The notes under the pieces are model-generated. The model searched no databases. It was not told where the DNA came from and worked only from the letters and a program-made list of their open reading frames with translations. Below, piece by piece: positions 5,955 through 31,205 of a stretch of 39,142 bases of DNA (positions are counted from its first letter, which is position 1; each line of letters begins with the position of its first letter). Both the position numbers and the translations under genes were made by a program. The stretch is from the NCBI GenBank assembly GCA_013361335.1, contig JABFYH010000100.1, forward strand, positions 1-39,142, read 5' to 3'. The DNA is from Gemmatimonadaceae bacterium (GTDB lineage Bacteria; Gemmatimonadota; Gemmatimonadetes; Gemmatimonadales; Gemmatimonadaceae).

Positions 5955-7160
5955 TTACTGCACCGCGTTGATCATGTCGAAGATCGGGAGGTACATGGCC
6001 ACGACCATGCCGCCGACCACGACGCCGAGGAACACGATCATCAGCGGCTCCATCATGCTGAGCAGGCCCGACACCGCGGCGTCGACCTCCTCGTCGTAGA
6101 AGTCGGCGATCTTGGAGAGCATCTCGTCGAGACCACCGGTCTGCTCGCCGACGGCGATCATGCTGATCACCATGGGCGGGAAGACCTGGCTCTTCTGGAG
6201 CGGCGCGGCGATCGTCTCACCGCCGGCGATCGAGGCGCGGGACTCCATGATCGCGTCCGAGATGACGCGGTTGCCCGCCGTCTTCGCCGTGATCTCGAGC
6301 CCCTCGAGGATGCTCACGCCGGAGCCGATCAGGGTGCCCAGGGTGCGCGTGAAGCGCGACACCGACGACTTGCGGAGCACGTCGCCGAGCACGGGCGCCT
6401 TCAGCATCAGCCGGTCGATCACCAGCTTGCCGTCGTTGGTGGCGTAGTACTTCTTGAAGGCGAAGAACGCGCCGTAGATGGCGCCGATGCAGATGTACCA
6501 GTAGCCCTGCAGAAACTTCGACATCCCGATCACGATGCGGGTCGGGAGCGGGAGGGCCAGGCCGACCGACGCGAACATCTTCTCGAAGGTCGGAATGACG
6601 AAGATGAGCAGCACGACGATGGCGATCGCCGCGACGCTCATGATCACACCAGGGTAGATCATGGCGCCCTTCACCTTGCGGACGAGGGCGTCGTTCTTTT
6701 CCATGAACGTCGCCAGGCGCATGAGGATCGTGTCGAGAATACCGCCCGCCTCGCCCGCCGCGACCATGTTGACGTACAGATCGCTGAACGCCTTGGGGTG
6801 CTTGCGGAGCGCGTCGGCCACGGTGTGACCGGACTCGACGTCGAAGACGACCGAGAGGGTGACGTCCTTGAGGGCCTTGTTCTCGCTCTGCTTGGCCAGG
6901 ATGTCCAGCGCCTGCACGAGTGGGAGACCGGCGTTGATCATCGTCGAGAATTGACGGGTGAAGATCACGATGTCGCGCATCGAGATCTTGCCCGCCTTCT
7001 TCTGCTTGGCCTTCTCGGCCTCCTTCTTCTCGTCGATCTTGACGACGTTCAGCCGCTGCTTGCGCAGCTGCGCGATGACCTCGTCGCGATTCGGCGCCTC
7101 GATGGTCGCCGTCTTGAGATCGCCGTTCAGCGCTCTCGCCGTATACGTGAATGCTGGCAT
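5955..7160 (-). CDS. pilC: Type IV pilus inner-membrane platform protein PilC
   Basis: A 401-residue type II secretion F-family protein, the platform in the inner membrane on which PilB and PilT act. It starts MPAFTYTARALNG, typical of the family. Two homologous T2SSF domains are visible: the first around FTRQFSTMINAGLPLVQAL (about 67-190) and the second around RFTRTLGTLIGSGVSILEGL (about 268-395). Membrane helices lie at about 170-195, 220-240 and 370-395. The GEAGG and GEQTGGLDEML repeats match between the domains. GAGG at 7166-7169 is 5 bases before the ATG. It is the last gene of pilB-pilT-pilC, 24 bases after pilT. Confidence 0.95.
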   Translation of the reverse strand: MPAFTYTARALNGDLKTATIEAPNRDEVIAQLRKQRLNVVKIDEKKEAEKAKQKKAGKISMRDIVIFTRQFSTMINAGLPLVQALDILAKQSENKALKDVTLSVVFDVESGHTVADALRKHPKAFSDLYVNMVAAGEAGGILDTILMRLATFMEKNDALVRKVKGAMIYPGVIMSVAAIAIVVLLIFVIPTFEKMFASVGLALPLPTRIVIGMSKFLQGYWYICIGAIYGAFFAFKKYYATNDGKLVIDRLMLKAPVLGDVLRKSSVSRFTRTLGTLIGSGVSILEGLEITAKTAGNRVISDAIMESRASIAGGETIAAPLQKSQVFPPMVISMIAVGEQTGGLDEMLSKIADFYDEEVDAAVSGLLSMMEPLMIVFLGVVVGGMVVAMYLPIFDMINAVQ

Positions 7161-7184
7161 GCTGGCCTCGTATAAATCGGTGAC

Positions 7185-8330
7185 CTACCGCTTTCCGGCC
7201 GGCGCGGTCCCGTTCGGGCTCGGGGACTTGCCGTCGGCCTCCGCCGCCTTGCCGATCATCCGGAGGAACTCGTTGGGATCGTGCGAGGCGCGCAGGCACT
7301 CTTCCTCCGCGACGTCGCGGCTCATGTACAGGGCGTACAGGGCGTCGTTCATCGTCTGCATGCCGAACTTCTTGCCCGACTGCATCGTGCTGTAGATCTG
7401 ATGGATCTTGTCGTCGCGGATGAGCGCCCGCACGGCCGGCGTGCACACGAGAATCTCGGCCGCCATCGCCCGGCCGCGCCCCTTCATCTTGGGCAGCAGG
7501 GTCTGGGTGATGACGCCCTCGAGCACGAAGGCGAGCTGTGCGCGCACCTGGCTCTGCTGGTGGCTGGGAAAGACGTCGATGATGCGGTTGATCGCCTCGG
7601 CGGCGCTGTTGGTGTGCAGCGTGGCGAACGCGAGGTGACCGGTCTCCGAGATCGTCAGCGCGGCCTGGATCGTGTCCAGGTCGCGCATCTCACCGATGAG
7701 GATGACGTCCGGGTCCTGCCGGAGGGCGTACTTGAGCGAGGCCTGGAAGCTCTTGGTGTCCGAGCCCACCTCGCGCTGGTTGACGATGCAGCCCTGATGA
7801 CGATGGATGAACTCGATCGGGTCTTCCACCGTGATGATGTGTCCCTTCCGCTCCTTGTTGATCTTGTCGATCATCGCGGCCAGGGTGGTGGACTTCCCCG
7901 AGCCCGTCGGCCCGGTCACGAGCACGAGCCCGCGCGGCCGCTCGGCCATCTTCCGGATCACGTCGGGGAGCTTCAGATCGTCGAAGGTCTTGATCGAGAA
8001 GGGGATCTGCCGGATGACCATCGAGACGCAGCCGCGCTGCTTGAAGCAGTTGCCGCGGAAGCGCGCGAGGTTCTGGATGCCGAACGAGAAGTCCAGCTCG
8101 TCCTCCATCTCGAAGCGCTTCTTCTGGTTCTCCGTGAGCACCGAGTAGGCGAGCTGCATCGTGTCCTTCGGCGTCATCACGAAGTCGAGCTTCGAGCTCT
8201 GGATCTCGCCGTCGATCCGCATCTTCGGCTTCTCGCCGGCGGTGACGTGCAGATCGGACGCGTCCCGCTCGATCATCTCCTCGAGAAGGACGCGAAGGTT
8301 GACGCTGGAGGCAACGACAGGGGCAGTCAT
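7185..8330 (-). CDS. pilT: Type IV pilus retraction ATPase PilT
   Basis: A 381-residue hexameric retraction motor. It has the N-terminal MERDASDLH-type motif (ERDASDLHVTAG, about 21-32), Walker A GPTGSGKST (140-148), an Asp box, Walker B DVILIGEMRD (208-217), the His box TGHLAFATLHTNSA (230-243) and the C-terminal retraction-linked AIRNLIRE-like segment (here AVRALIRDDKIHQI). The C-terminus is Pro/Gly/Lys-rich. The family is about 345-370 residues, so the length fits. It lies between pilB and pilC. The 138-base gap to pilB holds a large heptamer-repeat hairpin, which could separate expression of pilB from pilT-pilC. Confidence 0.95.
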   Translation of the reverse strand: MTAPVVASSVNLRVLLEEMIERDASDLHVTAGEKPKMRIDGEIQSSKLDFVMTPKDTMQLAYSVLTENQKKRFEMEDELDFSFGIQNLARFRGNCFKQRGCVSMVIRQIPFSIKTFDDLKLPDVIRKMAERPRGLVLVTGPTGSGKSTTLAAMIDKINKERKGHIITVEDPIEFIHRHQGCIVNQREVGSDTKSFQASLKYALRQDPDVILIGEMRDLDTIQAALTISETGHLAFATLHTNSAAEAINRIIDVFPSHQQSQVRAQLAFVLEGVITQTLLPKMKGRGRAMAAEILVCTPAVRALIRDDKIHQIYSTMQSGKKFGMQTMNDALYALYMSRDVAEEECLRASHDPNEFLRMIGKAAEADGKSPSPNGTAPAGKR

Positions 8331-8356
8331 TTCAGATTGAGTCCTGGGTAACGAAT

Positions 8357-8430
8357 CGTGATCCGTGAACCGTGATCCGTAACGAGCCGTTACGGTTCAC
8401 CCTTCACCGTTCACGGTTCACCGTTCACGG
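8357..8430. repeat. Heptamer-repeat inverted element, copy 1
   Basis: Four heptamers related to CGTGAAC on the plus strand (8357-8384) face about six inverted heptamers, GTTCACC or GTTCACG (8388-8430). The centre is a perfect CGTAACG / CGTTACG stem around AGC. The transcript could fold into an imperfect stem of about 27 bp. It lies in the gap between pilB and pilT. Related copies lie at 16753-16873 and 23113-23134. Confidence 0.8.
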
Positions 8431-8468
8431 GGTAAGACGACCGAGCTCGACCGGCGGTACAGCGCCCG

Positions 8469-10295
<1,827 letters not shown>

Positions 10296-10350
10296 GAGGC
10301 AGACTGAGGTCGGCGGGAAGGCGAGGTGGTCCGCGCCGATTCGGCGCATC

Positions 10351-11971: not shown

Positions 11972-12233
11972 GAGGTCGGGGGTCGCGGTGGCTTGGGGGT
12001 GACGATGCAGTTTCAACGGCGTCGGTGCAGTGTAGGAGGAGCGGCGGGTAGAGCGGCGTGCGTCGCCCGGTAAAGGTACACCGCCGGTGGGAAAGGGCAC
12101 GCGACTCGATGCCGGCCCGGCCCCGCGCCCTTGAATCTCGGTCGTCCCGGGTCGAAGTTATTGTCTGCAACGCACGCGACAACTCCGTGCGATTCTTGAA
12201 CTTCCGCGCGTGCCACGCAGGTCGGGTCCCGAC

Positions 12234-13904
12234 GTGACCATCATCAGCAAATACGTACTCAGGGAGCACGTCGGACCGCTGACGTTCGCGCTCACCGCGC
12301 TGACGTCGCTGATGCTGCTGCAGTTCATCTCCCGGCAGTTCGGCGAGCTCGTGGGAAAAGGGCTGCCGTGGTCGGTCATCGGTGAGTTCTTTCTGCTGTC
12401 GATCCCCTTCACCGTCGCGCTCACGGTGCCGATGTCGGTGCTGGTGGCGGTGCTCTACGCGTTCAGCCGGTTGGCGGGCGAGAACGAGGTCACCGCCATG
12501 AAGGCGAGCGGCGTCAGCCCGTGGCGGCTCGTGTCGCCCGCGGTCGGGGGCGGATTGTTCTGCGCGCTGGTGCTTCTCGCCTTCAGCGATCAGGTGCTCC
12601 CGCGCGCGAACCACCGGCTCAAGACGCTGCAGGACGACATCTCGCAGACGAAGCCGACCTTCCTGCTCAAGGAGCAGGTGATCAACTCGGTCGTCGAGGG
12701 GAAGTATTACCTCAAGGCGGGCAAGATCGACCGCGCCAGCGACAAGAACCTGCTGAGGGAGGTCGTGATCTACGACCTCGCCGATCCGACGCGCCGCCGG
12801 ACGATCTACGCCGACGACGGGGCGGTCCAGCTGTCGACGAACGGCAGGGATCTGGTGCTGGACCTGTATCACGGGCAGATGCAGGAGCTGGCCTCGGACA
12901 AGCCGGGCCAGCTCAACCGGCTCTTCTTCCAGCACGATCTCATCCGGTTCAAGGACGTCGCGAGCGGCGACTTCAAGCAGACGGAAGCCGGCGCCTCCTC
13001 CAAGAGCGACCGCGAGATGAGCGTGTGCGAGATGCAGCGCCGCCTGTGGCAGGCCAGTGGAAGCTACGAGGCGGCACAGCGCGAGTACGACGCCGTCCGC
13101 CATCCGGATACCTCGGCGACCGCCGACTCGCGCGCCGCGGCGAGCGCGCTCGGCCTCGCGCCGGTGCGCGTGCCGGAGCCGCGTGGGATCGGCTGGGCGT
13201 ATTGTCGACTCGTCGACTTCCTGCACGTGAAGGACGTGGAGGCGGCGACCCTGCCGCCGAGCGGGCAGGTGGTGCGGCAGGCGGCGCGACAGAACGTGGC
13301 TCGCCGCGATACGGTACGGCGCGACTCCGTGCGGCGCGACACGACGCGGCGGGTCGTGCCCCGCACGGCCGACCGCTTCGTGCCGGCGCGGAAGGTCGTC
13401 ACGCCGGCACCGGCGCCGGGCGGGATCGGGCAGGGGCCGCAGTCCATGCGGAGCCCCGACGACCAGGTCCGCCGCGCGCAGCTCGCCGAGGCGAAGCTGC
13501 GTCTGGACATCGCGCAGCGGGCCAGGAATCGGTATGAGATCGAGATCCACAAGAAGTTCTCGCTCTCGGCGGCGTGCGTCATCTTCGTCATCATCGGCGC
13601 GCCGATCGCCGTACGCTTCCCGCGTGGCGGAGTGGGGCTGGTGATCGGGGTCAGCCTGCTCGTGTTCGCGCTGTACTACGTGGGGCTCATCGGCGGCGAG
13701 TCGCTCGCCAACGAGGGGATCATTCCGCCCTTCTGGGCGATGTGGGGGACGAACGTGATCCTGACCATTGTCGGTGTCGTCCTCTTCCTCCGCATGGGGC
13801 GGGATTCGACGTCGAACCGCGGCGGCGACTGGAGCGACAAGCTCGATGCCCTGCTGGCGAAGTTCGGGCGCGGGCCGCAGGCGCGGCTGGAGAGCCTGTC
13901 ATGA
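12234..13904 (+). CDS. lptF: LPS export permease LptF with a large extra periplasmic insert
   Basis: A 556-residue LptF/LptG-family permease, about 190 residues longer than E. coli LptF. The GTG at 12234 begins the conserved TIISKYVLREHVGPL helix; the frame is open to a GTG at 12210 but without support. Three N-terminal helices (about 15-125) include ENEVTAMKASGVSPWRL, the coupling motif that meets the ATPase LptB. A beta-jellyroll domain (about 140-250) is followed by an unusual insert of about 170 residues, rich in Ala/Arg/Pro and holding an RRDT-VRRDS-VRRDT repeat at about 357-373. Three C-terminal helices close the protein. With LptG and LptB it should move LPS from the inner membrane. 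The stop overlaps lptG (ATGA). lptB is not in the window. Confidence 0.9.
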   Translation: MTIISKYVLREHVGPLTFALTALTSLMLLQFISRQFGELVGKGLPWSVIGEFFLLSIPFTVALTVPMSVLVAVLYAFSRLAGENEVTAMKASGVSPWRLVSPAVGGGLFCALVLLAFSDQVLPRANHRLKTLQDDISQTKPTFLLKEQVINSVVEGKYYLKAGKIDRASDKNLLREVVIYDLADPTRRRTIYADDGAVQLSTNGRDLVLDLYHGQMQELASDKPGQLNRLFFQHDLIRFKDVASGDFKQTEAGASSKSDREMSVCEMQRRLWQASGSYEAAQREYDAVRHPDTSATADSRAAASALGLAPVRVPEPRGIGWAYCRLVDFLHVKDVEAATLPPSGQVVRQAARQNVARRDTVRRDSVRRDTTRRVVPRTADRFVPARKVVTPAPAPGGIGQGPQSMRSPDDQVRRAQLAEAKLRLDIAQRARNRYEIEIHKKFSLSAACVIFVIIGAPIAVRFPRGGVGLVIGVSLLVFALYYVGLIGGESLANEGIIPPFWAMWGTNVILTIVGVVLFLRMGRDSTSNRGGDWSDKLDALLAKFGRGPQARLESLS

Positions 13905-14986
13905 GCGTCGTGCGCCCTCTCGACCGGTACGTCTTCGTGGAGTGGATGAAGATCTTCGTCGCCACGGCGATCGGGCTGCCGGTCCTGCTCGTGATCATCG
14001 ATCTCACCGATCATCTGCAGCAGTACCTGACGCGCAACATCCCGGCGCCGGACATCGCGTTGAGCTACGTGTACTGGATGCCACAGTCGATGTTCATGGC
14101 GATGCCGGCGGCGGTCCTGTTCGCGACGGTGTTCTCCGTCGGCACCTTCACGCGGCATTCCGAGATCACCGCGGCCAAGGCGTCGGGGATCAGCTTCTAC
14201 CGGCTGGTGGCGCCGATCCTGCTCGGCGCGACGCTCGCGGCGGGGCTGGATCTGGTGGTGGGCGAGCTCGTGCCGATCACCGACGCGCGGCGCAACGACC
14301 TGCTGCGCGAGAGCAAGGTGCAGTCGGGAACGCAGCGGTTCAACTTCGCCTATGCGGCAGAGTATGGGCGGGTGTACAAGGCCCAGACGCTGGACGTGCC
14401 GGGCGGGCGGATGGACCGGCTCCAGATCGAACGAAAGGGGAGCGGGAAGGATTATCCGACGGTCGTGATCTCGTCGTCGGAGGCGAAGTACGATCCGGCG
14501 ACCGGGCGGTGGACCCTCGGCGCGGGCGACATGCACATCATCCGTGACAGCACTCCCAGCATGGTGATCAGCTTCAGCGAGCTGCGGGATCGGAACATGC
14601 GCGAGCGGCCGGCGGACCTGATGGCCAAGCCGCGCGACCCGCAGGAGATGCGCTACGGGGAGCTGACGCGATTCATCCACGCGCTCGAGCGCTCGGGGGG
14701 CGACGGCAACCTGCTCCGCGTGGAGCGGGCGCTCAAGATCGCCATCCCGATCACCTGCCTGGTCATCGCGATGTTCGGCGCGCCGCTGGCGACGAGCACC
14801 CAGCGCGGCGGCACCGCCTACGGCATCGGCCTGAGCCTGGCGATCACCGTCACCTTCCTCATGCTCATCCAGCTCACGAAGCCACTGGGCGGCAAGAACA
14901 TCATCTGGCCCGACGTGGCGGCGTGGCTGCCGAACGCGCTGTTCGCCCTCGGCGGGTTCGTCCTGCTCGCCCGCGTGCGCACGTGA
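13901..14986 (+). CDS. lptG: LPS export permease LptG
   Basis: A 361-residue LptF/LptG-family permease of normal length, starting at an ATG that overlaps the lptF stop (ATGA), so the pair is translationally coupled. Helices lie at about 17-36, 60-85, 100-125, 280-300, 305-330 and 335-358. HSEITAAKASGISFYRLV is the LptB-coupling motif, and the periplasmic jellyroll is at about 140-255. It forms the heterodimer with LptF. Its end overlaps mlaE as GTGA. Partner ATPase LptB and the LptC-A-D bridge must be encoded elsewhere. Confidence 0.9.
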   Translation: MSVVRPLDRYVFVEWMKIFVATAIGLPVLLVIIDLTDHLQQYLTRNIPAPDIALSYVYWMPQSMFMAMPAAVLFATVFSVGTFTRHSEITAAKASGISFYRLVAPILLGATLAAGLDLVVGELVPITDARRNDLLRESKVQSGTQRFNFAYAAEYGRVYKAQTLDVPGGRMDRLQIERKGSGKDYPTVVISSSEAKYDPATGRWTLGAGDMHIIRDSTPSMVISFSELRDRNMRERPADLMAKPRDPQEMRYGELTRFIHALERSGGDGNLLRVERALKIAIPITCLVIAMFGAPLATSTQRGGTAYGIGLSLAITVTFLMLIQLTKPLGGKNIIWPDVAAWLPNALFALGGFVLLARVRT

Positions 14987-24134: not shown

Positions 24135-25337
24135 TTATACGACGATCAGCTCACGCTGGTAGTGATCGGGCGTGATGATGGCCCGGCCGTCCTCGATGAA
24201 CGCGTTCACTTCCGTGCGCATGCCGATCTCGCCCGGCACATAGACGCCGGGCTCGATGGAGAATCCGACGCCGGGCACCAGCAGCCGCTCCTCGCGCGTC
24301 TCGAGGTTGTCGAGGTGCGGACCGGCGCCGTGCAGCGACCGGGGATCGATGGAGTGGCCGGTGCGGTGGGTGAAGTAGCGACCCAACCCGCGCGCATCGA
24401 TCACGGCGCGCGCGGCATCGTCCACGTCACCCCCGCGGAGCGCACGCCCCGCGGCGACGTCATCGGTCACCTTGCGGATCGCTGCGTCGCGCGCGTCGCG
24501 GATCGTCGTCCAGATCTCCTGCGCGCGCGCGGACGGCTCGCCGACGGTCGCCATCCACGTCTGGTCGGCCCACACGCCGACCGTCGCCGGATCGGACGCA
24601 TCCGTCTCGCGCGCCCACAGATCGATCAACAGCACGTCGCCGGGCACGATGGGACGGGGCCGATCCGCCGAGGGCTCGTAGTGCGGATTGGCGGCGTTCG
24701 CGCCTGCAGAGACGTTGGGCCCATGGTCCGTGGCGAGCCCTTCGCGCGCGAACCGATCGAGGATCCACGCCATCACCTCGTGCTCGGCGATGGGCCGCGC
24801 CGTGCGCGCGCGCTCGCCGACCAGCGTGAACGCGTCGAGCGCGATCTGCCGGATGGCGGCGGCCGCGCGGCGGTGCGACGCGAGGTGTGCCGCCGTCCAC
24901 GAGGCCACGAAGCGCGTCACGAGCACCCCTGACGACACGATCTCGCGCGCCCCGGCGGCGCGCACCATCTCCAACACGCCGGCAGGTACGCGGTCGAGAT
25001 AGGGCACCGCGTCGCCCGGGGAGTACTCCATGGCGACGCGCCGGCCGCGGACCATGCTGCCGACCGCACCCTCGAGCTCACGCCACGAGCTGTAGGCCGC
25101 GTGCTGCCATGCGGCGGGCCAGCTGCGCCACGGACCGGGCTCGATCGCGTGGCCCAACGCGCTCGGCACGCCGTCGCGCGGGATCCAGACGAAGATCCGG
25201 CGGGTGACCATGCCCTGCAGGCCCAGCAGCCCACCCGCGATCGGATTGCAGCCCTGGAAGTCGAACAGCAGCCACCCGTCGAGCCCTGCGTCGGCGATGG
25301 CGCGCTGCAGCGCGGGAAGGGCGGCCGGCGTCAGCAC
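24135..25337 (-). CDS. M24-family metallopeptidase (Xaa-Pro dipeptidase-like)
   Basis: A 400-residue pita-bread-fold peptidase. The five metal ligands are readable: Asp239 in LLIDLWARE, Asp258 in WADQTW, His328 in HRTGHSID, Glu362 in SIEPGVY and Glu376 in MRTEVNAF. The N-terminal domain (about 1-150) is of creatinase/prolidase type. It should remove or cleave Xaa-Pro dipeptides in the cytoplasm. The start is a GTG at 25337, 16 bases after the V4R-like gene, so the two probably form an operon. Confidence 0.88.
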   Translation of the reverse strand: MLTPAALPALQRAIADAGLDGWLLFDFQGCNPIAGGLLGLQGMVTRRIFVWIPRDGVPSALGHAIEPGPWRSWPAAWQHAAYSSWRELEGAVGSMVRGRRVAMEYSPGDAVPYLDRVPAGVLEMVRAAGAREIVSSGVLVTRFVASWTAAHLASHRRAAAAIRQIALDAFTLVGERARTARPIAEHEVMAWILDRFAREGLATDHGPNVSAGANAANPHYEPSADRPRPIVPGDVLLIDLWARETDASDPATVGVWADQTWMATVGEPSARAQEIWTTIRDARDAAIRKVTDDVAAGRALRGGDVDDAARAVIDARGLGRYFTHRTGHSIDPRSLHGAGPHLDNLETREERLLVPGVGFSIEPGVYVPGEIGMRTEVNAFIEDGRAIITPDHYQRELIVV

Positions 25338-25353: not shown

Positions 25354-25977
25354 TCAGACCGACGCGCTGCGCCAGTCGGCGCGCCACTCGCAGGCCCCTT
25401 CGCCGCGCCCCGCGCAGCGCGTGTGCTCCACCGCTCCGGTCGCGCCGACGAGGAGCCGCATCAGCTCCCGCAGCGTCGCCTCGTAGAAGGTGCAGCCGGT
25501 GCTGCCCGGCGCGACGCCGAGCGTCACCGACCGCGGCACCTCGAGCAGCACGTACGTCCCCACGCGACGCACGTTCGCGTTGAGATACCGCTGCGCCAGG
25601 CGGCGGACCCGACGCAGGGCCATCGGGCGCGCGACGAACGACGGCAGCACGCGGACCATCGTGCGCGTCAGTGCGGGCACCGTGTGGTACGCCTCGTGGG
25701 CCAGATAGCGGCCGGCGGCCCGCAGGACCGCCTCGGCGTCCGGCCGGCGGCCGATCAGCCGCGCCAACGCCACCGCTTCGTCCTGCGCCGTGCGCTGGTT
25801 CTTCCGCACCGCCTCGGAGTAGCGCTTGATCTGGGTGTAGACCGTATCACTCAGCCCGAACCGCTTGTTGCGGAGCTCGTCCACGAACTCCGCCTCGAGC
25901 ACCCCCTCGGGGGTATCGACGTCGCGGACGGCTTCGAGGAGGCTGAGCGGGAGGAGGGCGTCGACCGTAGCGAGCAT
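25354..25977 (-). CDS. V4R-like protein of unknown function
   Basis: A 207-residue soluble protein. The C-terminal part (about 140-203) reads like the 4-vinyl-reductase (V4R) or heme-NO-binding-like fold: strand VLLEVP, then GCTFYEATLRELMRLL and the Cys signature CAGRGEGACEWRADW (C-x7-C). The N-terminal part is helical, with an ALARLIGRRPDAEAVLRAAG segment similar to myxobacterial proteins that share this fold. V4R domains bind small hydrophobic molecules or tetrapyrroles and act as sensors or scaffolds. There are no bacteriochlorophyll genes here, so a pigment role is unlikely. It lies upstream of the M24 peptidase and divergent from the DUF92 operon. Confidence 0.5.
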   Translation of the reverse strand: MLATVDALLPLSLLEAVRDVDTPEGVLEAEFVDELRNKRFGLSDTVYTQIKRYSEAVRKNQRTAQDEAVALARLIGRRPDAEAVLRAAGRYLAHEAYHTVPALTRTMVRVLPSFVARPMALRRVRRLAQRYLNANVRRVGTYVLLEVPRSVTLGVAPGSTGCTFYEATLRELMRLLVGATGAVEHTRCAGRGEGACEWRADWRSASV

Positions 25978-26105: not shown

Positions 26106-26945
26106 ATGGCAGTCGTCCCCGCTCCGCCAACCCTCGACGTCCTGATGACCGCCCTCACCGCTCGCGCCGCCGCCGGTCTCCTCGTCGCCATCGCTATCGC
26201 GCTGGCCGCTCGGCGCGCCGGCTCCCTGTCCGGCAGTGGCGCACTGGCCGCCGTCGTGGTCGGCACCGCGGCGGTCGTCGCGGGATGGGGATGGGGCGCG
26301 CTGCTCGTGCTGTACTTCGTCACGGCCTCGGCGGTGTCCCACCTCGGTGCAGCAGACAAGGAGCGGCGGATGTCGGGGATCGTGGCGAAAGGCGGCGCAC
26401 GCGACGTCGTGCAGGTGCTGGCGAACGGCGGCGTCTTCGCCCTGTGCGCGCTCGGGACACGATGCGAATGGGTGGACCAGCACGTCATCGCCGCGGCCGC
26501 GGCCGGCGCACTCGCCGCGGCCGCGGCGGACACCTGGGCCACGGAGCTGGGGGTCCTGTTCGGCGGAACTCCACGCGCGGTGCCGGGTCTGCACCCTGTG
26601 CCGCCGGGCACGTCGGGCGCGGTGAGCATGGTGGGCACGGCGGGGATGATCGCCGGAGCCCTGGGCATCGCCGTCGCGGCCCGCGCCCTCTCGCTCACCG
26701 AGGCCATGGGGGTCGTCGCCATCGCCGGCTGCACCGGCGCGGTGGCGGATACGCTCGTCGGCGCCGTGCTGCAGGAGCGTCGGTGGTGCGACGCGTGCAA
26801 CCTCGCCACCGAGCGCCGCATCCACGATTGCGGCGCGCCGACGAGGCGCGCGGGAGGAGTGACCGTGCTGGACAACGATGCCGTGAACCTGCTGGCCACC
26901 CTTGTGGGCGGCGCGACTGCGCTGCTGTTAGCCTTCGCCTTGTGA
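26106..26945 (+). CDS. DUF92 membrane protein (VTE6/TMEM19 family)
   Basis: A 279-residue protein with about six membrane helices. Family motifs are visible: VSHLGAADKERR, KGGARDVVQVLANGG, AAADTWATELG (about 139-149), GAVADTLVGAVLQERRW and VTVLDNDAVNLLA near the C-terminus. The plant member VTE6 is a phytyl-phosphate kinase for tocopherol synthesis; bacterial members are mostly uncharacterised. Start ATG at 26106; an ATG at 26145 is also possible and neither has a strong ribosome site. The stop overlaps the GTG of the FAD oxidoreductase (GTGA). The neighbour is a geranylgeranyl-reductase-type enzyme, so a prenyl-phosphate substrate is a fair hypothesis. Confidence 0.82.
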   Translation: MAVVPAPPTLDVLMTALTARAAAGLLVAIAIALAARRAGSLSGSGALAAVVVGTAAVVAGWGWGALLVLYFVTASAVSHLGAADKERRMSGIVAKGGARDVVQVLANGGVFALCALGTRCEWVDQHVIAAAAAGALAAAAADTWATELGVLFGGTPRAVPGLHPVPPGTSGAVSMVGTAGMIAGALGIAVAARALSLTEAMGVVAIAGCTGAVADTLVGAVLQERRWCDACNLATERRIHDCGAPTRRAGGVTVLDNDAVNLLATLVGGATALLLAFAL

Positions 26946-28216
26946 CCGTTGTGCCGCTGGATCGGGAGCCGGATGTCATCGTCGTGGGAGGCGGGCCGGC
27001 CGGCGCGTCCGCCGCGTGCGCGCTGGCGCGCGCCGGCGCCCGGGTGCTCGTCCTCGATCGCGCCCGCTTCCCCCGCCCCAAGCCGTGCGCGGAATATCTC
27101 AGCCCGCAGGCCTCGCGCCTGCTGAGCGGCATGGGCGCGCTGGAGCGAGTCGAGCGTGCGGGCGCGGCGCATCTCGCCGGCATGACCGTGCGCGCCCCGA
27201 ACGGCGCGCTGATCCAGGGCGACTTCGTCGCCGCCCACGGCTACCGCGCCTTCCGCGACCGCGGGCTGGCCCTCCGCCGCACCGCGCTCGACCCGATCCT
27301 CCTCGACTGCGCGCGCGATGCCGGTGCCGAGGTCCGCGAGGGGATTCGCGTCACCGACGTGACCCGCGACGCGACCGGCCGCGCCAACGGAGTGCGCGTG
27401 CTCGAGGCGAATGGCGCGGCACGCACGATCCCGGCGCGACTCGTGATCGGCGCGGACGGCCTGCGCTCCGTCGTCGGCCGGCGGCTCGGACTCACTCGCG
27501 CGCGGCGCTGGCCGAAGCGCCTCGCGCTCGTGGCGCATTACGAAAACTTCGGCGACGTCACCGCCTGGGGCGAGATGCACGTCGAGCGCGACGTCGGCTA
27601 CGTCGGCATCGCCGCAGTGGACGCCGGCCTCACCAACGTCGCGATGGTGGTGCCCGCCCGCTTCGCCGCGGTCGTCAGCGCGGACCGCACGGCATTCTTC
27701 GAGCGCTGGTTGCGGGAGCGCCCTCAGCTCGCCCCGCGCGTGCGCGACGCGCGCCGGGTGTCGCCCGTGCTGGCCACCGGACCGTTCGCGTCGCATGCTC
27801 GGCGGGCGTGGGCGCCCGGGGTCGCGCTGGTCGGCGACGCCGCCGACTTCTTCGATCCCTTCACCGGCGAGGGGATCTACGCGGCGCTGCGCGGCGGCGA
27901 GCTGCTCGCACCCTTTGCCATCGCCGCCCTGGGCGCCGACACCCTCCGGGGCGGCGATCGGGCGCTGGCCGACTACGATCGTGCGCGCCGGGCGGAGTTC
28001 GGCGGCAAGTGGATCGTCGAGCGGCTCATCGGCGCCGCCGTCGGCTTCGCCCCCGCCATCAATCACTTCGCGCGCACCCTGGAGGCCCGCAAGGACATGG
28101 CAGACCTGCTCGTCGGAGTGACCGGCGACTTCGTTCCCCCGCGCGAGGTGTTGCGCGCCTCGTATCTCCTCGGCCTCTTTCGTCGACAGGGCCCGACCAT
28201 CACTCCCGGCGCATGA
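26942..28216 (+). CDS. FAD-dependent oxidoreductase of the geranylgeranyl reductase type
   Basis: A 424-residue flavoprotein starting at a GTG that overlaps the DUF92 stop. The Rossmann motif VVGGGPAGAS is at 14-23, the substrate-side KPCAEYLSP motif with Cys49 at 47-54, a VIGADGLRSVVG motif at 168-179 and the second FAD motif GDAADFFDPFTGEGIYAALRGG at about 298-319. The PCAEYLSP motif and GDAA-x-x-x-DPFTGEG are shared by geranylgeranyl reductases and by flavin monooxygenase-like tailoring enzymes of type III PKS clusters. It could reduce isoprenoid double bonds or oxidise an aromatic product. Its stop overlaps the flavin reductase start (ATGA), suggesting the two act together. Confidence 0.85.
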   Translation: MTVVPLDREPDVIVVGGGPAGASAACALARAGARVLVLDRARFPRPKPCAEYLSPQASRLLSGMGALERVERAGAAHLAGMTVRAPNGALIQGDFVAAHGYRAFRDRGLALRRTALDPILLDCARDAGAEVREGIRVTDVTRDATGRANGVRVLEANGAARTIPARLVIGADGLRSVVGRRLGLTRARRWPKRLALVAHYENFGDVTAWGEMHVERDVGYVGIAAVDAGLTNVAMVVPARFAAVVSADRTAFFERWLRERPQLAPRVRDARRVSPVLATGPFASHARRAWAPGVALVGDAADFFDPFTGEGIYAALRGGELLAPFAIAALGADTLRGGDRALADYDRARRAEFGGKWIVERLIGAAVGFAPAINHFARTLEARKDMADLLVGVTGDFVPPREVLRASYLLGLFRRQGPTITPGA

Positions 28217-28692
28217 CGATCGACCCCGATTCATTTCGCAGCGTTCTCGGACGCTTCGCCTCCGGCATCACCGTCGTCACCACGGTGGATGACACCGGCC
28301 GCGACATGGGAATGACGGTGAGCGCCTTCGCGTCGGCGAGCTTGCGCCCCCCACTCGTCTCGATCTGCATCGACCACGCGGCATCGATCCATGGCGCTCT
28401 GTGTGCCGCCGAGCGGTTCGGCGTCAACATCCTCGCGTCCGAGCAGGAGGCGCTGTCACGCCGCTTCTCGACCGTCGAATCGTCGCATCGATTCGACGGC
28501 CTCGGGTACGAGCGCGGCGAGAGTGGTGTCGTGCTGCTCGACGACGCGCTGGCCCACGTGGAGTGCCGGCGCCTGGCGCGGTTCGAGGCGGGGGACCACA
28601 CGCTGTTCCTCGGCGAGGTGGAGCGCGCCGAGGCGCGCGATGCGCGCCCCCTGCTCTACTACCGCGGCGGGTACGCCCAGCTGGAGCGCTGA
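28213..28692 (+). CDS. Flavin reductase-like FMN/FAD-binding protein
   Basis: A 159-residue protein of the HpaC/ActVB flavin-reductase family, which supplies reduced flavin to two-component monooxygenases. Family marks are FRSVLGRFASGITVVTT (8-24), TVSAFASASLRPPLVSI (about 36-52), FGVNILASEQEALSRRF and GDHTLFLGEVE. The ATG overlaps the preceding oxidoreductase stop. Six bases separate it from the methyltransferase gene. Its close coupling to the FAD enzyme argues for a two-component redox step. Confidence 0.9.
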   Translation: MTIDPDSFRSVLGRFASGITVVTTVDDTGRDMGMTVSAFASASLRPPLVSICIDHAASIHGALCAAERFGVNILASEQEALSRRFSTVESSHRFDGLGYERGESGVVLLDDALAHVECRRLARFEAGDHTLFLGEVERAEARDARPLLYYRGGYAQLER

Positions 28693-28698
28693 GCGCCC

Positions 28699-29388
28699 GT
28701 GCTCGTCCCGCGCCGCCGTCGCGGCTTCGAGCACCTCGACGATCCGCGTACCGAGCCTGCGCTGCGCGAGCGCTCGCTGCGCGACGTGCGGCGCGCCAAC
28801 ACCCTCCTCGGCGGGGCCTGGGCGGTGACGCGCGAGCTGTGGCGCGAGCCCCTCGGTCCAGGCGCAGCGCTGTCGCTGCTCGACGTCGGGACCGGCCTCG
28901 CTGACATCCCCGCGCGGGCGCGCCGCGGTGCACGGCGGCGCGGGGTGACGCTGACGACGTTCGGTATCGACGAGGCCGAGGTGCTCGCCGCACGCGGCGC
29001 GGCGCTGCTGGATGGCAGCGTCTGCGCGGACGCCCGGAGGCTGCCCTTCCCGGACGCGAGCGTCGACGTCGTCGTCTGCTCGCAGGTGCTTCACCACTTC
29101 GAGGAGGCGGAGATTCCGGCGGTGCTCGCCGAGCTGTCGCGCGTGGCGCGCCAACGGGTGATCGTGAGCGACCTTCGCCGGAGCTGGCTCGCCGCCGGCG
29201 GATTCTGGTTGGTGAGCTGGCCGCTCGGCTTCCACCCCGTCACCCGACACGATGGGCTCACGTCGGTGCTGCGGGGCTTCACCCCCGATGAGCTGGCTCG
29301 GCACGTGCGCAGCTCCACAGGGTGCACGCCGGTGGTGCGGCGCCACCCCGGCTTTCGCGTCACCGCTACCTGGAGCCCGCGCCCATGA
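28699..29388 (+). CDS. Class I SAM-dependent methyltransferase
   Basis: A 229-residue methyltransferase with motif I LLDVGTGLADIP (about 60-71), a post-I acidic position in FGIDEAE, and motif IV-like VDVVVCSQVLHHFEE (about 122-136). The N-terminus (RRRRGFEHLDDP, then LRDVRRANTLLGG) and the HDGLTSVLRGFTPDEL segment closely recall the methyltransferases found next to type III polyketide synthases and FAD oxidoreductases in many bacteria. That recollection is from family knowledge, not a search. GTG start at 28699; ATGA overlap with the SRPBCC gene. Probably O-, C- or carboxyl-methylates the pathway product. Confidence 0.85.
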   Translation: MLVPRRRRGFEHLDDPRTEPALRERSLRDVRRANTLLGGAWAVTRELWREPLGPGAALSLLDVGTGLADIPARARRGARRRGVTLTTFGIDEAEVLAARGAALLDGSVCADARRLPFPDASVDVVVCSQVLHHFEEAEIPAVLAELSRVARQRVIVSDLRRSWLAAGGFWLVSWPLGFHPVTRHDGLTSVLRGFTPDELARHVRSSTGCTPVVRRHPGFRVTATWSPRP

Positions 29389-29921
29389 GCACCAACCTCC
29401 CCGCGCCGCTCGATCTCGGCCCCATGCCGGCCGGCCGCCGCATGACGACGCTCGACGAGCGCGTCGTGCACGCACCGGTCGCGCGGATCTTCGCCCTGGC
29501 CGCCGACGTGGAACGCTGGCCGGCGCTGCTGCCGCACTACCGCTACGTGCGCTTCCGGGAGCACCGCGCGGATGGCGGGGGGATCGTGGAGATGAGCGCA
29601 TACCGCCCCTTCGGTCTCGTGCAGTGGCCGACGTGGTGGCGCTCGACGATGCGGGTGCGCCGCCCCGGTGGAACGGATGCGCCGTCGATCCGGTTCACCC
29701 ACGTGGGCGGGATCACCCGTGGCATGGAAGTCGAATGGACCTTTCATGAGCTCGACGGCGGGCGGACGCTCGTTCGCATCCTCCACGTCTGGGACGGCCC
29801 GGACGTTCCCGTCCTCGGGCCGGCCGCCGCGACGCTGGTCATCGGCCCGGTGTTCGTGCATGGGATCGCCAGCCGCACCCTCGCCGGACTCGCGAACGCC
29901 GCCGAACGAGGCGCGGGGTGA
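29385..29921 (+). CDS. SRPBCC polyketide cyclase/aromatase-like protein
   Basis: A 178-residue START/SRPBCC-fold protein beginning at an ATG that overlaps the methyltransferase stop. Recognisable are VVHAPVARIFALAADVERWPALLPHY (split: helix-loop then WPALLPHY), a central VEWTFHELDGGRTLVRI strand pair and a C-terminal long helix. The fold holds aromatase/cyclases of type II PKS (TcmN, WhiE types), coenzyme Q-binding proteins and lipid carriers. Position between a methyltransferase and a ketosynthase favours an aromatase or cyclase role. A C-terminal hydrophobic patch (LVIGPVFVHGI) may line the pocket or touch membrane. Confidence 0.75.
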   Translation: MSTNLPAPLDLGPMPAGRRMTTLDERVVHAPVARIFALAADVERWPALLPHYRYVRFREHRADGGGIVEMSAYRPFGLVQWPTWWRSTMRVRRPGGTDAPSIRFTHVGGITRGMEVEWTFHELDGGRTLVRILHVWDGPDVPVLGPAAATLVIGPVFVHGIASRTLAGLANAAERGAG

Positions 29922-29944
29922 CGGGTATCTTTGAAGTCTCTTTC

Positions 29945-29949
29945 GGAGG
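29945..29949 (+). promoter_or_regulatory. Ribosome binding site deciding the ketosynthase start
   Basis: GGAGG followed after 5 bases by GTG at 29955. This supports the GTG over the TTG at 29931, which has no ribosome site. Confidence 0.65.
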
Positions 29950-29954
29950 TCAGG

Positions 29955-31205
29955 GTGGCTGATCGGCGGCGGGTTGCGGTAACCGGGATCGGGGCAATCA
30001 CCCCGATCGGGGTCGGGCGCGAGCGCTTGTGGGAGGGGCTGCGTGCGCAGCGCTCGGCCGTGCGTACCGTCACGCGCTTCGATCCCTCGCGCTGGCGCAG
30101 TCACAACGCCGCCGAGGTCGACGACTTCGACGCCGCCGACTACCTCGAGCGCAAGAAGGTGAAGCGCCTCGAGCGCTTCGGCCATTTCTCGATCGCCTGC
30201 GCGATGCAGGCGATGCAGGACGCGGGGATCGACCTCGCCACCGAAGATCGCGAGCGGATCGGCGCGATGATGGGCACCGCGCTCGGTGGGCTGAGCTTCG
30301 CCGAGGGCCAGCTCGGGATCTTCCTCCAGCAGGGGATCAAGGCGGTCGATCCCACCCTCGCGCTCAACGTCTTCGCCGGCGCGGCGAGCTGCAACATCGC
30401 CATCGAGCTCGGCGTGCAGGGTCCCAACAGCACGAACGGGATGAGCTGCGCGTCGGGGACGATCGCCGTGGGTGAGGCGTTCCGCGCGATCCGCGACGGC
30501 TACGCCGACGTGATGTTCGCCGGCGCAGCCGAGGCGCCGCTCGCGCCACTCTGCTTCGGGGCGTTCGCGATCATCCGCGCCATGTCGACGCGCAACGACC
30601 AGCCCGACGCGGCCTCCCGCCCCTTCGACAAGGATCGCGACGGCTTCGTGATGGGCGAGGGCGCGGCCGTGCTCGTGCTGGAGGAGCTCGAGCGGGCCAG
30701 GGCACGAGGCGCACGGGTGTACGCGGAGGTGGTGGGCTTCGGGATGTCGAACGACGCGCATCACATGACGGCGCCGCGGCCGGACGGCTCCCAGGCGGCG
30801 CGCTCGATGCGGCTCGCGCTGCGCGATGCCGGGATCGGCCCGAGCGAGGTGGCGTACGTCAACGCACACGGAAGCTCGACGCCGCTCAACGACCCCACGG
30901 AGACGGGAGCGATCCGCCAGACCTTCGGCGAGCACGCTGCCGACCTCCAGGTGAGCAGCACCAAGGGGTACTATGGTCACGCGCTCGGCGCGTCGGGGGC
31001 GATCGAGCTGGCCATCACATCGCTCGCGCTCGAGCGTCGGTGGCTCCCGCCGACGATCAACCACGACGCCGCGGCGGAGGGGTGCGATCTCGACTACATC
31101 CCGCGCGAGGGGCGCGACGCCGACGTCGAGTACGCGCTCAGCAACAGCTTCGGCTTCGGCGGGATCAACGCGGCGGTGGTGCTCAAGCGGCACGAGGGCG
31201 TGTAA
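29955..31205 (+). CDS. Beta-ketoacyl synthase (FabF/KAS II-like, divergent)
   Basis: A 416-residue ketosynthase. The thiolase-fold catalytic triad is complete: Cys165 in NGMSCASGT, His305 in NAHGSSTPLND and His342 in STKGYYGHALGASGA, with Lys337. Normal FabF has TACATGTHAIG around the cysteine and STKSMTGHLLGAAGA around the second His, so the pocket-lining residues differ. The Cys is present, so this is a condensing enzyme and not a chain-length factor. It ends the biosynthetic operon, 34 bases after the SRPBCC gene. Neither acyl carrier protein nor a second ketosynthase is adjacent. It could instead be a housekeeping FabF, but location and motif changes argue against that. Confidence 0.9.
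   Translation: MADRRRVAVTGIGAITPIGVGRERLWEGLRAQRSAVRTVTRFDPSRWRSHNAAEVDDFDAADYLERKKVKRLERFGHFSIACAMQAMQDAGIDLATEDRERIGAMMGTALGGLSFAEGQLGIFLQQGIKAVDPTLALNVFAGAASCNIAIELGVQGPNSTNGMSCASGTIAVGEAFRAIRDGYADVMFAGAAEAPLAPLCFGAFAIIRAMSTRNDQPDAASRPFDKDRDGFVMGEGAAVLVLEELERARARGARVYAEVVGFGMSNDAHHMTAPRPDGSQAARSMRLALRDAGIGPSEVAYVNAHGSSTPLNDPTETGAIRQTFGEHAADLQVSSTKGYYGHALGASGAIELAITSLALERRWLPPTINHDAAAEGCDLDYIPREGRDADVEYALSNSFGFGGINAAVVLKRHEGV

Follow-up and report, generated by a model that had tools for sequence, protein, structure and literature searches.

The window analyzed here, a stretch of 39,142 nucleotides from a Gemmatimonadaceae bacterium (assembly GCA_013361335.1, contig JABFYH010000100.1, positions 1 to 39,142), carries a six-gene operon on the + strand (26106-31205) that probably encodes a pathway for a phenolic lipid of the alkylresorcinol or polyketide-quinone type, in which a ketosynthase (KS) and an SRPBCC protein resembling aromatase/cyclases (ARO/CYC) replace the type III polyketide synthase (PKS). 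We give this reading, drawn from comparisons of sequences, a probability of roughly 0.57. That the KS and the SRPBCC protein have been exchanged for a type III PKS in the course of evolution is well supported by the distribution and surroundings of these genes across the phylum. A broader proposal, to which we give somewhat less than even odds, is that a lone FabF-type KS homodimer and a dedicated ARO/CYC, served by the acyl carrier protein (ACP) of fatty acid synthesis and working without a chain-length factor (CLF), constitute a fourth architecture of aromatic polyketide synthesis. In most Gemmatimonadota, the product of this architecture would be a phenolic lipid or quinone with redox activity, and evolution could exchange the architecture with type III PKS.

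All six open reading frames (ORFs) of the operon were located (Table 1). The genes of the DUF92 protein and the FAD enzyme overlap by GTGA, while the FAD enzyme and flavin reductase, and the methyltransferase (MT) and SRPBCC protein, overlap by ATGA. The remaining gaps are of 6 bases (flavin reductase to MT) and 33 bases (SRPBCC to KS), and the GTG start of the KS at 29955 is preceded by GGAGG at 29945-29949. The initial annotation, which had described a compact operon with overlaps or gaps of at most 34 bases, was thus accurate, and its family assignments were borne out by the profiles in Table 1, together with TIGR02032 for the FAD enzyme. The MT scores 134.8 bits against PRK06202, under the cut-off of 243, and is therefore not a full member of that family. 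Profile searches also agreed with the earlier statement that a CLF and a type III PKS are absent from the operon and that no ACP match lies nearby. No match to the type III PKS profile PF00195 was found in the operon or in the window's genome, which is 84% complete; in the relatives, many weak PF00195 matches resemble FabH, as judged by reading. A family search of the operon genes found no prenyltransferase. We take DUF92 to be the VTE6-like family, possibly a VTE6-like kinase.

Table 1. Genes of the operon, with their proposed roles and the basis of each assignment.
Product	Position	Strand	Basis
DUF92 integral membrane protein; variable first gene	26106..26945	+	PF01940, 196 bits
FAD enzyme of the geranylgeranyl reductase (GGR) / FADH2-dependent halogenase-monooxygenase superfamily; proposed to hydroxylate the ring as a two-component system with the flavin reductase	26942..28216	+	motifs, profile and structure matches
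Flavin reductase of HsaB/FerA/StyB type; proposed FADH2 supplier	28213..28692	+	PF01613, 149 bits
S-adenosylmethionine (SAM) methyltransferase, PRK06202-like; family adjoins type III PKS on plasmids	28699..29388	+	Methyltransf_11, PRK06202
SRPBCC aromatase/cyclase-like protein; proposed ring former	29385..29921	+	Polyketide_cyc; PDB profile search; AlphaFold model
Ketosynthase, FabF-like beta-ketoacyl-ACP synthase; proposed iterative condensing enzyme	29955..31205	+	TIGR03150, 533 bits

To follow the exchange across the phylum, we used a sample of 298 genomes, in which the SRPBCC profile served as operon marker and the identity of type III PKS was scored against that of genome G054. The marker is present in 171 genomes (146 of the 255 of good quality), spread over several families of the class; 32 genomes have a type III PKS match. 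The marker is absent from all 17 genomes whose type III PKS has 40% identity or more to that of G054, but present in 167 of the 266 in which no type III PKS matched (Fisher p 1.2e-7 for this group of 17, a value that ignores kinship, which matters because 15 of the 17 belong to one family). The switches observed within genera are independent of this uncorrected statistic. Genus g40 has the type III PKS in G054 and the marker in G055, G135, G159, and G189; genus g75 has the former in G099 and G104 and the latter in G188; and genus g91 has the type III PKS in G173 and G212 and the marker in G276.

Seven more distant operon loci were fetched, five of which (G276, G267, G165, G188, G063) show the order MT - FAD enzyme - SRPBCC - KS, and one (G233) the same order as far as SRPBCC, where the contig ends; in the seventh, G075, the SRPBCC gene is alone. 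A sigma-factor gene follows the operon in G276, G267, G165, and G188. The MT and FAD enzyme genes lie directly before the same sigma-factor gene in G173 and G212, with the SRPBCC and KS genes exactly missing. These two genes are missing in G127 too, where an unrelated 368-residue membrane-protein ORF stands between the FAD enzyme and the sigma-factor gene, so that the exact absence is limited to G173 and G212. The clade profile detected no operon-type KS in the assemblies of these three genomes. Their type III PKS is encoded elsewhere, and the stretches fetched around it contain neither MT nor FAD enzyme; G143 shows the same picture up to the end of its contig.

The MT provides a second tie to type III PKS. 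Searched against 72,556 plasmid records (E 1e-5), it matched 29, all with a type III PKS 65-2249 bases away. The records come from 8 genera, and the 13 from Sphingobium and 7 from Deinococcus are not independent. The initial annotation had regarded this MT as of a kind found beside type III PKS, which these matches confirm. In the phylum sample, the type III PKS of 12 genomes (G054 included) has 50% identity or more to that of G054; the MT and the FAD enzyme are present in all nine loci fetched (L209-L217), and the order MT - FAD enzyme - type III PKS was found in all eight loci with positions and also in Paludisphaera. This order, of the hidABC type, has been tied experimentally to alkylresorcinols (PMC10896814). 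Operons of type III PKS, MT, and oxidoreductase make polyketide quinones, which are described as alternate electron carriers (PMC9927152).

The SRPBCC protein resembles ARO/CYC of the TcmN/WhiE type by profile and by predicted fold. The top PDB matches of its profile were BexL (4e-10), WhiE (7e-8), and TcmN ARO/CYC (1e-5), the matches to these three spanning 4e-10 to 2e-5, followed by StfQ (0.003), ZhuI (0.006), and the RatA-like 1t17 (0.01). Its AlphaFold model (pLDDT 91.6) is nearest to the TcmN and ZhuI ARO/CYC, which occupy Foldseek ranks 1-6 (TM to 3tfz_F 0.72/0.79). We considered a role as a COQ10/RatA lipid-binding carrier and rejected it, since 1t17 ranks below the ARO/CYC. The protein (P0004) had no match among the plasmid records searched.

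The KS passes the TIGR03150 FabF cut-off of 493.75 bits, its Cys-His-His and Lys motifs are intact, and its nearest structures are FabF (426 bits, against 316 for the actinorhodin KS). The genome has another FabF (G000:C136:10448; TIGR03150 610 bits), which directly follows an ACP gene and is the housekeeping copy. In a tree of 42 rows (21 operon KS and 21 others), the operon KS form one clade with support 100/100 and no other row inside. Nine of the ten other Gemmatimonadota FabF-type rows form a separate clade (99/96), and the tenth (hk_L047) stands apart. The FabF of E. coli, S. aureus, and others, as well as streptomycete KS-alpha and CLF, lie outside both clades, with no supported order among the groups. 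The rows for NodE and for aryl-polyene KS sit on long branches, and the latter, a single row, is uninformative. The operon KS also have their own signature at the active Cys, MSCASG, found in 21/21 operon rows and 0/21 of the other aligned rows, while the consensus near the two His residues reads, with few variants, NAHGSSTPLND and TK.YYGHALGASGAIE. With a profile of this clade, the operon KS of G188 and G276 reach 655-660 bits, and KS of the other type, in 12 genomes, do not exceed 479. A housekeeping FabF is thus ruled out by location, the other copy being linked to acpP, and by the tree. These results agree with the earlier view of the condensing enzyme as a divergent FabF-type KS, which in the tree did not group with the FabF beside acpP.

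Of the 35 operon-bearing relatives at least 95% complete, 22 have exactly two KS-family matches, the operon KS and one copy of 43-50% identity, and hence no candidate CLF; this count covers those 22, the remaining 13 having further matches. There is no dedicated ACP near the operon, and the genome has two PP-binding matches, one beside the other FabF and one within an open frame of 1129 aa (contig C200). The ORF list and bases of locus L228, read without a model scan, show no clear gene for a hidden ACP between SRPBCC and KS. Among the plasmid matches listed for the KS, the first is in Streptomyces sp. NBC_00008 (L249, 1-9218; 47% identity), where a FabF-like KS lies beside an ACP, FabG, a synthase III-like gene, a FAD monooxygenase, and a P450, with no CLF annotated in the stretch shown.

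These data allow another reading, in which the KS is a second FabF for a special acyl chain, the SRPBCC protein is a lipid or quinone carrier (RatA/COQ10/START-like), and a lipid or menaquinone is modified without any polyketide being made. We regard it as unlikely, second in plausibility among the alternatives. The FabF score and nearest structures of the KS and the RatA-like match of the SRPBCC profile agree with it, whereas the better ARO/CYC matches of that profile, the link between the MT family and type III PKS, the exchange with that synthase, and the joint loss of KS and SRPBCC in G088, G173, G212, and G127 all favor the phenolic-lipid pathway.

The FAD enzyme matches FAD_binding_3 and, at 156.4 bits, falls just short of the TIGR02032 cut-off of 158.8. 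It has the motifs GxGxxG, C49, ADG, and GDAADFFDPFTGEG. The closest solved structures are FADH2-dependent halogenases (FasV, ChlB4, PltA, and CndH, among others), followed by the archaeal GGR-like 3oz2 and PqsL, among others, and its own model has a pLDDT of 91.6. The earlier label of GGR-type oxidoreductase needs a correction: true GGR are more distant from this enzyme than FADH2-dependent halogenases and monooxygenases are. GGR have a Trp motif at a position where a paralog (L239) reads GYGWIFP and where the FAD enzymes of operons in the window's order have GYVG(L/I), with GYVGIAAV in the window and GYVGLAPV as the family consensus. The same position reads GYVGL or nearly so in the enzymes of type III PKS operons, and xxVG or xxLG in the more distant KS operons. 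The enzymes of KS and of type III PKS operons share C49 and GDAxx(F/Y/V)x(D/E)P(F/L)(T/S)G. The flavin reductase scores 129 bits against NF045630, below the cut-off of 230, and is missing from the more distant MT - FAD enzyme - SRPBCC - KS operons. The simplest reading is a two-component hydroxylase, since in the window the flavin reductase adjoins the FAD enzyme.

Two other functions of the FAD enzyme were weighed and rejected. As a GGR prenyl reductase, it would belong to an isoprenoid pathway, where it would saturate a prenyl chain activated by DUF92 while the other enzymes decorate a prenylated ring. The near-threshold TIGR02032 score and the usual adjacency of DUF92 fit this idea, which we nevertheless hold to be very unlikely given the GYVG in place of the Trp motif, the nearest structures, the absence or displacement of DUF92 in several loci, and an operon devoid of prenyltransferase. 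The "perhaps prenylated" product of the initial annotation is likewise backed by the variable DUF92 gene only. The least probable reading of all, with the slightest of chances, is a halogenated phenol made by a halogenase with its flavin reductase, as the best structural matches and the adjacent reductase might suggest. Halogenases have a WxWxIP motif, whereas this region reads GYVGIAAV in the window, a similar motif occurs in the enzymes of type III PKS operons, and the reductase is absent from the more distant operons.

The operon is conserved among relatives. We searched for the KS in 60 genomes, namely the window's own and 59 relatives from three families, and found matches in all. An operon-type KS of 55-100% identity is present in 54 of them (from a table read by eye), though in G047 and G057 in pieces only. 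The six genomes without it are G017 (fragments of 46 and 54%), G021, G031, G034, G043, with SRPBCC and MT at a contig edge, and G054. We fetched 50 of the 53 loci in other genomes (G035, G047, and G057 were left out), and each of them has the SRPBCC gene ahead of the KS, on the same strand and within 385 bases, with an overlap in 24. Gene order was counted in the 41 loci of relatives where the KS is preceded by 5.5 kb or more of sequence. The succession FAD enzyme - flavin reductase - MT - SRPBCC - KS on one strand is kept in 38, and the full six-gene order in 32, DUF92 being the least constant member. The exceptions to the former lack the MT (L035), the flavin reductase (L038), or both, leaving FAD enzyme - SRPBCC - KS only (L058). 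This order is not due to chance, and the gene order proposed from the window alone thus proved to be conserved in related genomes. A wider scan of contigs confirmed 220 places; among the 80 of these listed, the records are titled as Gemmatimonadota or genera of that phylum, save L100, L126, and L117. The last is in a record titled Kuenenia and has the operon at 51-66% identity.

From these elements, the following pathway can be proposed. The KS, a presumed FabF-like homodimer without CLF, would take an acyl chain from the housekeeping ACP, using acyl-ACP as FabF does, and would add malonyl-ACP units without reduction. The SRPBCC protein would then fold the poly-beta-ketone and aromatize it, yielding an alkyl phenol or resorcinol; the MT would methylate the ring, and the FAD enzyme, with FADH2 from the flavin reductase, would hydroxylate it to a hydroquinone or quinone. 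We infer in this way the dimeric state, the starter, the number of extensions, the ring type, and the oxidation step, and the product may serve as a redox-active or protective membrane lipid. The idea of the initial annotation, a minimal route to a methylated aromatic lipid or quinone, finds support in the replacement within the same gene order, the mutual exclusion, the MT link, and the affinity of the SRPBCC protein to ARO/CYC.

Several observations weigh against this pathway. Plant hormone receptors, which have the same fold as the SRPBCC model, appear from Foldseek rank 7, close behind the ARO/CYC, so the fold alone would not settle the identity of the protein. The Arg of the ARO/CYC motif WVSER/WVSHR, catalytic in TcmN, is an invariant Met (M89) in the operon proteins, hence cyclization would need other residues; the invariant His51, Tyr52, Arg53, His106, and His134 are candidates for a different active site. 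The MT is absent from L034, L035, and L058, and MT-family genes also occur without either synthase, as a second copy in G134 (L260) and as MT - FAD enzyme alone in G124 (L279). The FAD enzymes of KS and type III PKS operons are sister groups (83/81) in one tree, a result not recovered with a second set of rows. Concerning the exchange, 4 of the 15 genomes with a more distant type III PKS also hold the marker (G022, G038, G039, G240), and G075 keeps the SRPBCC gene without MT, FAD enzyme, or operon-type KS. G088 has lost SRPBCC and KS and has no type III PKS match. Its locus (L255, 9264-12865) reads DUF92 - FAD enzyme - flavin reductase - MT, and the DPFTGEG motif of its FAD enzyme has become APVIGTG, as if the pathway were decaying. 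Finally, the known aromatic type II PKS need an obligate KS/CLF heterodimer (PMC12664062). A KS working without CLF would contradict this rule, which is the surprise of our reading.

The replaced Arg is also what speaks for the most plausible of the alternatives, still an unlikely one, in which the KS and SRPBCC protein make a non-benzenoid ring (an alkyl-pyrone, a cyclohexanedione, or a tetronate-like ring) or a condensation product of shorter length, in either case tailored by the operon's MT and FAD enzyme. Type III PKS relatives make pyrones too. However, a FAD hydroxylase-type enzyme and an MT would best suit a phenol, and the type III PKS group that excludes the marker is that of the MT - FAD enzyme operons, the co-occurrences being with more distant ones.

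The proposed phenolic-lipid pathway can be compared with known systems. It shares the MT family and the operon logic with the hid-type operon (hierridins; planctomycete alkylresorcinols) and with srs/pkq (phenolic lipids, polyketide quinones). These systems have a FAD enzyme of the same superfamily with similar C49, GYVG, and PFTGEG motifs, and in the phylum sample they and the operon marker are mutually exclusive. In contrast to them, the operon lacks a type III PKS, has the SRPBCC protein and FabF-like KS instead, and, in the window's order, adds a flavin reductase. The Cys-His-His KS of the FabF superfamily and the helix-grip ARO/CYC are features of aromatic type II PKS with TcmN/WhiE/ZhuI-type ARO/CYC, with which the operon would also share its dependence on ACP. 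Unlike these, it has no CLF, dedicated ACP, or ketoreductase, its KS is nearer to FabF than to KS-alpha, and its ARO/CYC Arg is a Met. With FabF (beta-ketoacyl-ACP synthase II) the KS shares the catalytic motifs and the TIGR03150 score, but it forms a separate clade with its own active-site signature and coexists with a housekeeping FabF beside acpP. In the dialkylresorcinol/flexirubin system, a resorcinol lipid is made by a ketosynthase and a cyclase (DarB and DarA) rather than by a type III PKS; DarB is FabH-like and DarA is not an SRPBCC protein. A search by title and start of abstract, in a literature with few subscription journals and hence of weak value, found no description of this gene set among the papers listed. 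As far as we have seen, the kind of pathway (phenolic lipids) and both enzyme superfamilies were already known, and their combination and the exchange are new.

The surroundings of the operon are stable, with an M24 peptidase gene upstream in 37 of 46 loci, a V4R-like gene upstream in 32 of 46, and an aquaporin gene downstream in 27 of 46. These neighbors, among others, seem to reflect a constant position in the chromosome and not a part in the pathway. In the window, the V4R-like protein (25354-25977, with weak BchJ and V4R matches) and the M24 peptidase (24135-25337) are encoded on the - strand, opposite to the operon. A few loci carry insertions. A B12-binding radical SAM gene stands between DUF92 and the FAD enzyme at L018:5218-6675 and L022:13670-15148, and gaps of similar size in L020, L043, L046, and L059 perhaps hold the same insertion, judging from gap size alone. 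The L018 copy is matched best by the model of the ladderane-type lipid B12 radical SAM enzymes (TIGR04072, 328 bits, cut-off 360), which also points to lipid chemistry. In one relative of the same genus (G004, L028:6258-8992), MT and SRPBCC are separated by two multi-pass membrane proteins encoded in tandem. Elsewhere in the window, reading of the ORFs suggests type IV pilus pilC/pilT/pilB-like genes (5955-10349, - strand) and two LptF/LptG-like permeases (12210-14986, + strand).

If the proposed pathway is correct, the 171 genomes with the marker among the 298 sampled, over half of this sample of a large soil and water phylum, would make an unrecognized phenolic lipid or quinone, and the route would be expected to escape cluster finders that look for type III PKS or KS/CLF. 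The KS and SRPBCC protein offer a minimal two-protein system for asking whether a KS without CLF builds aromatic rings, and the exchange amounts to an experiment of nature in which one ring-building chemistry replaces another, unrelated one. The product would then be a candidate alternative electron carrier in Gemmatimonadota.

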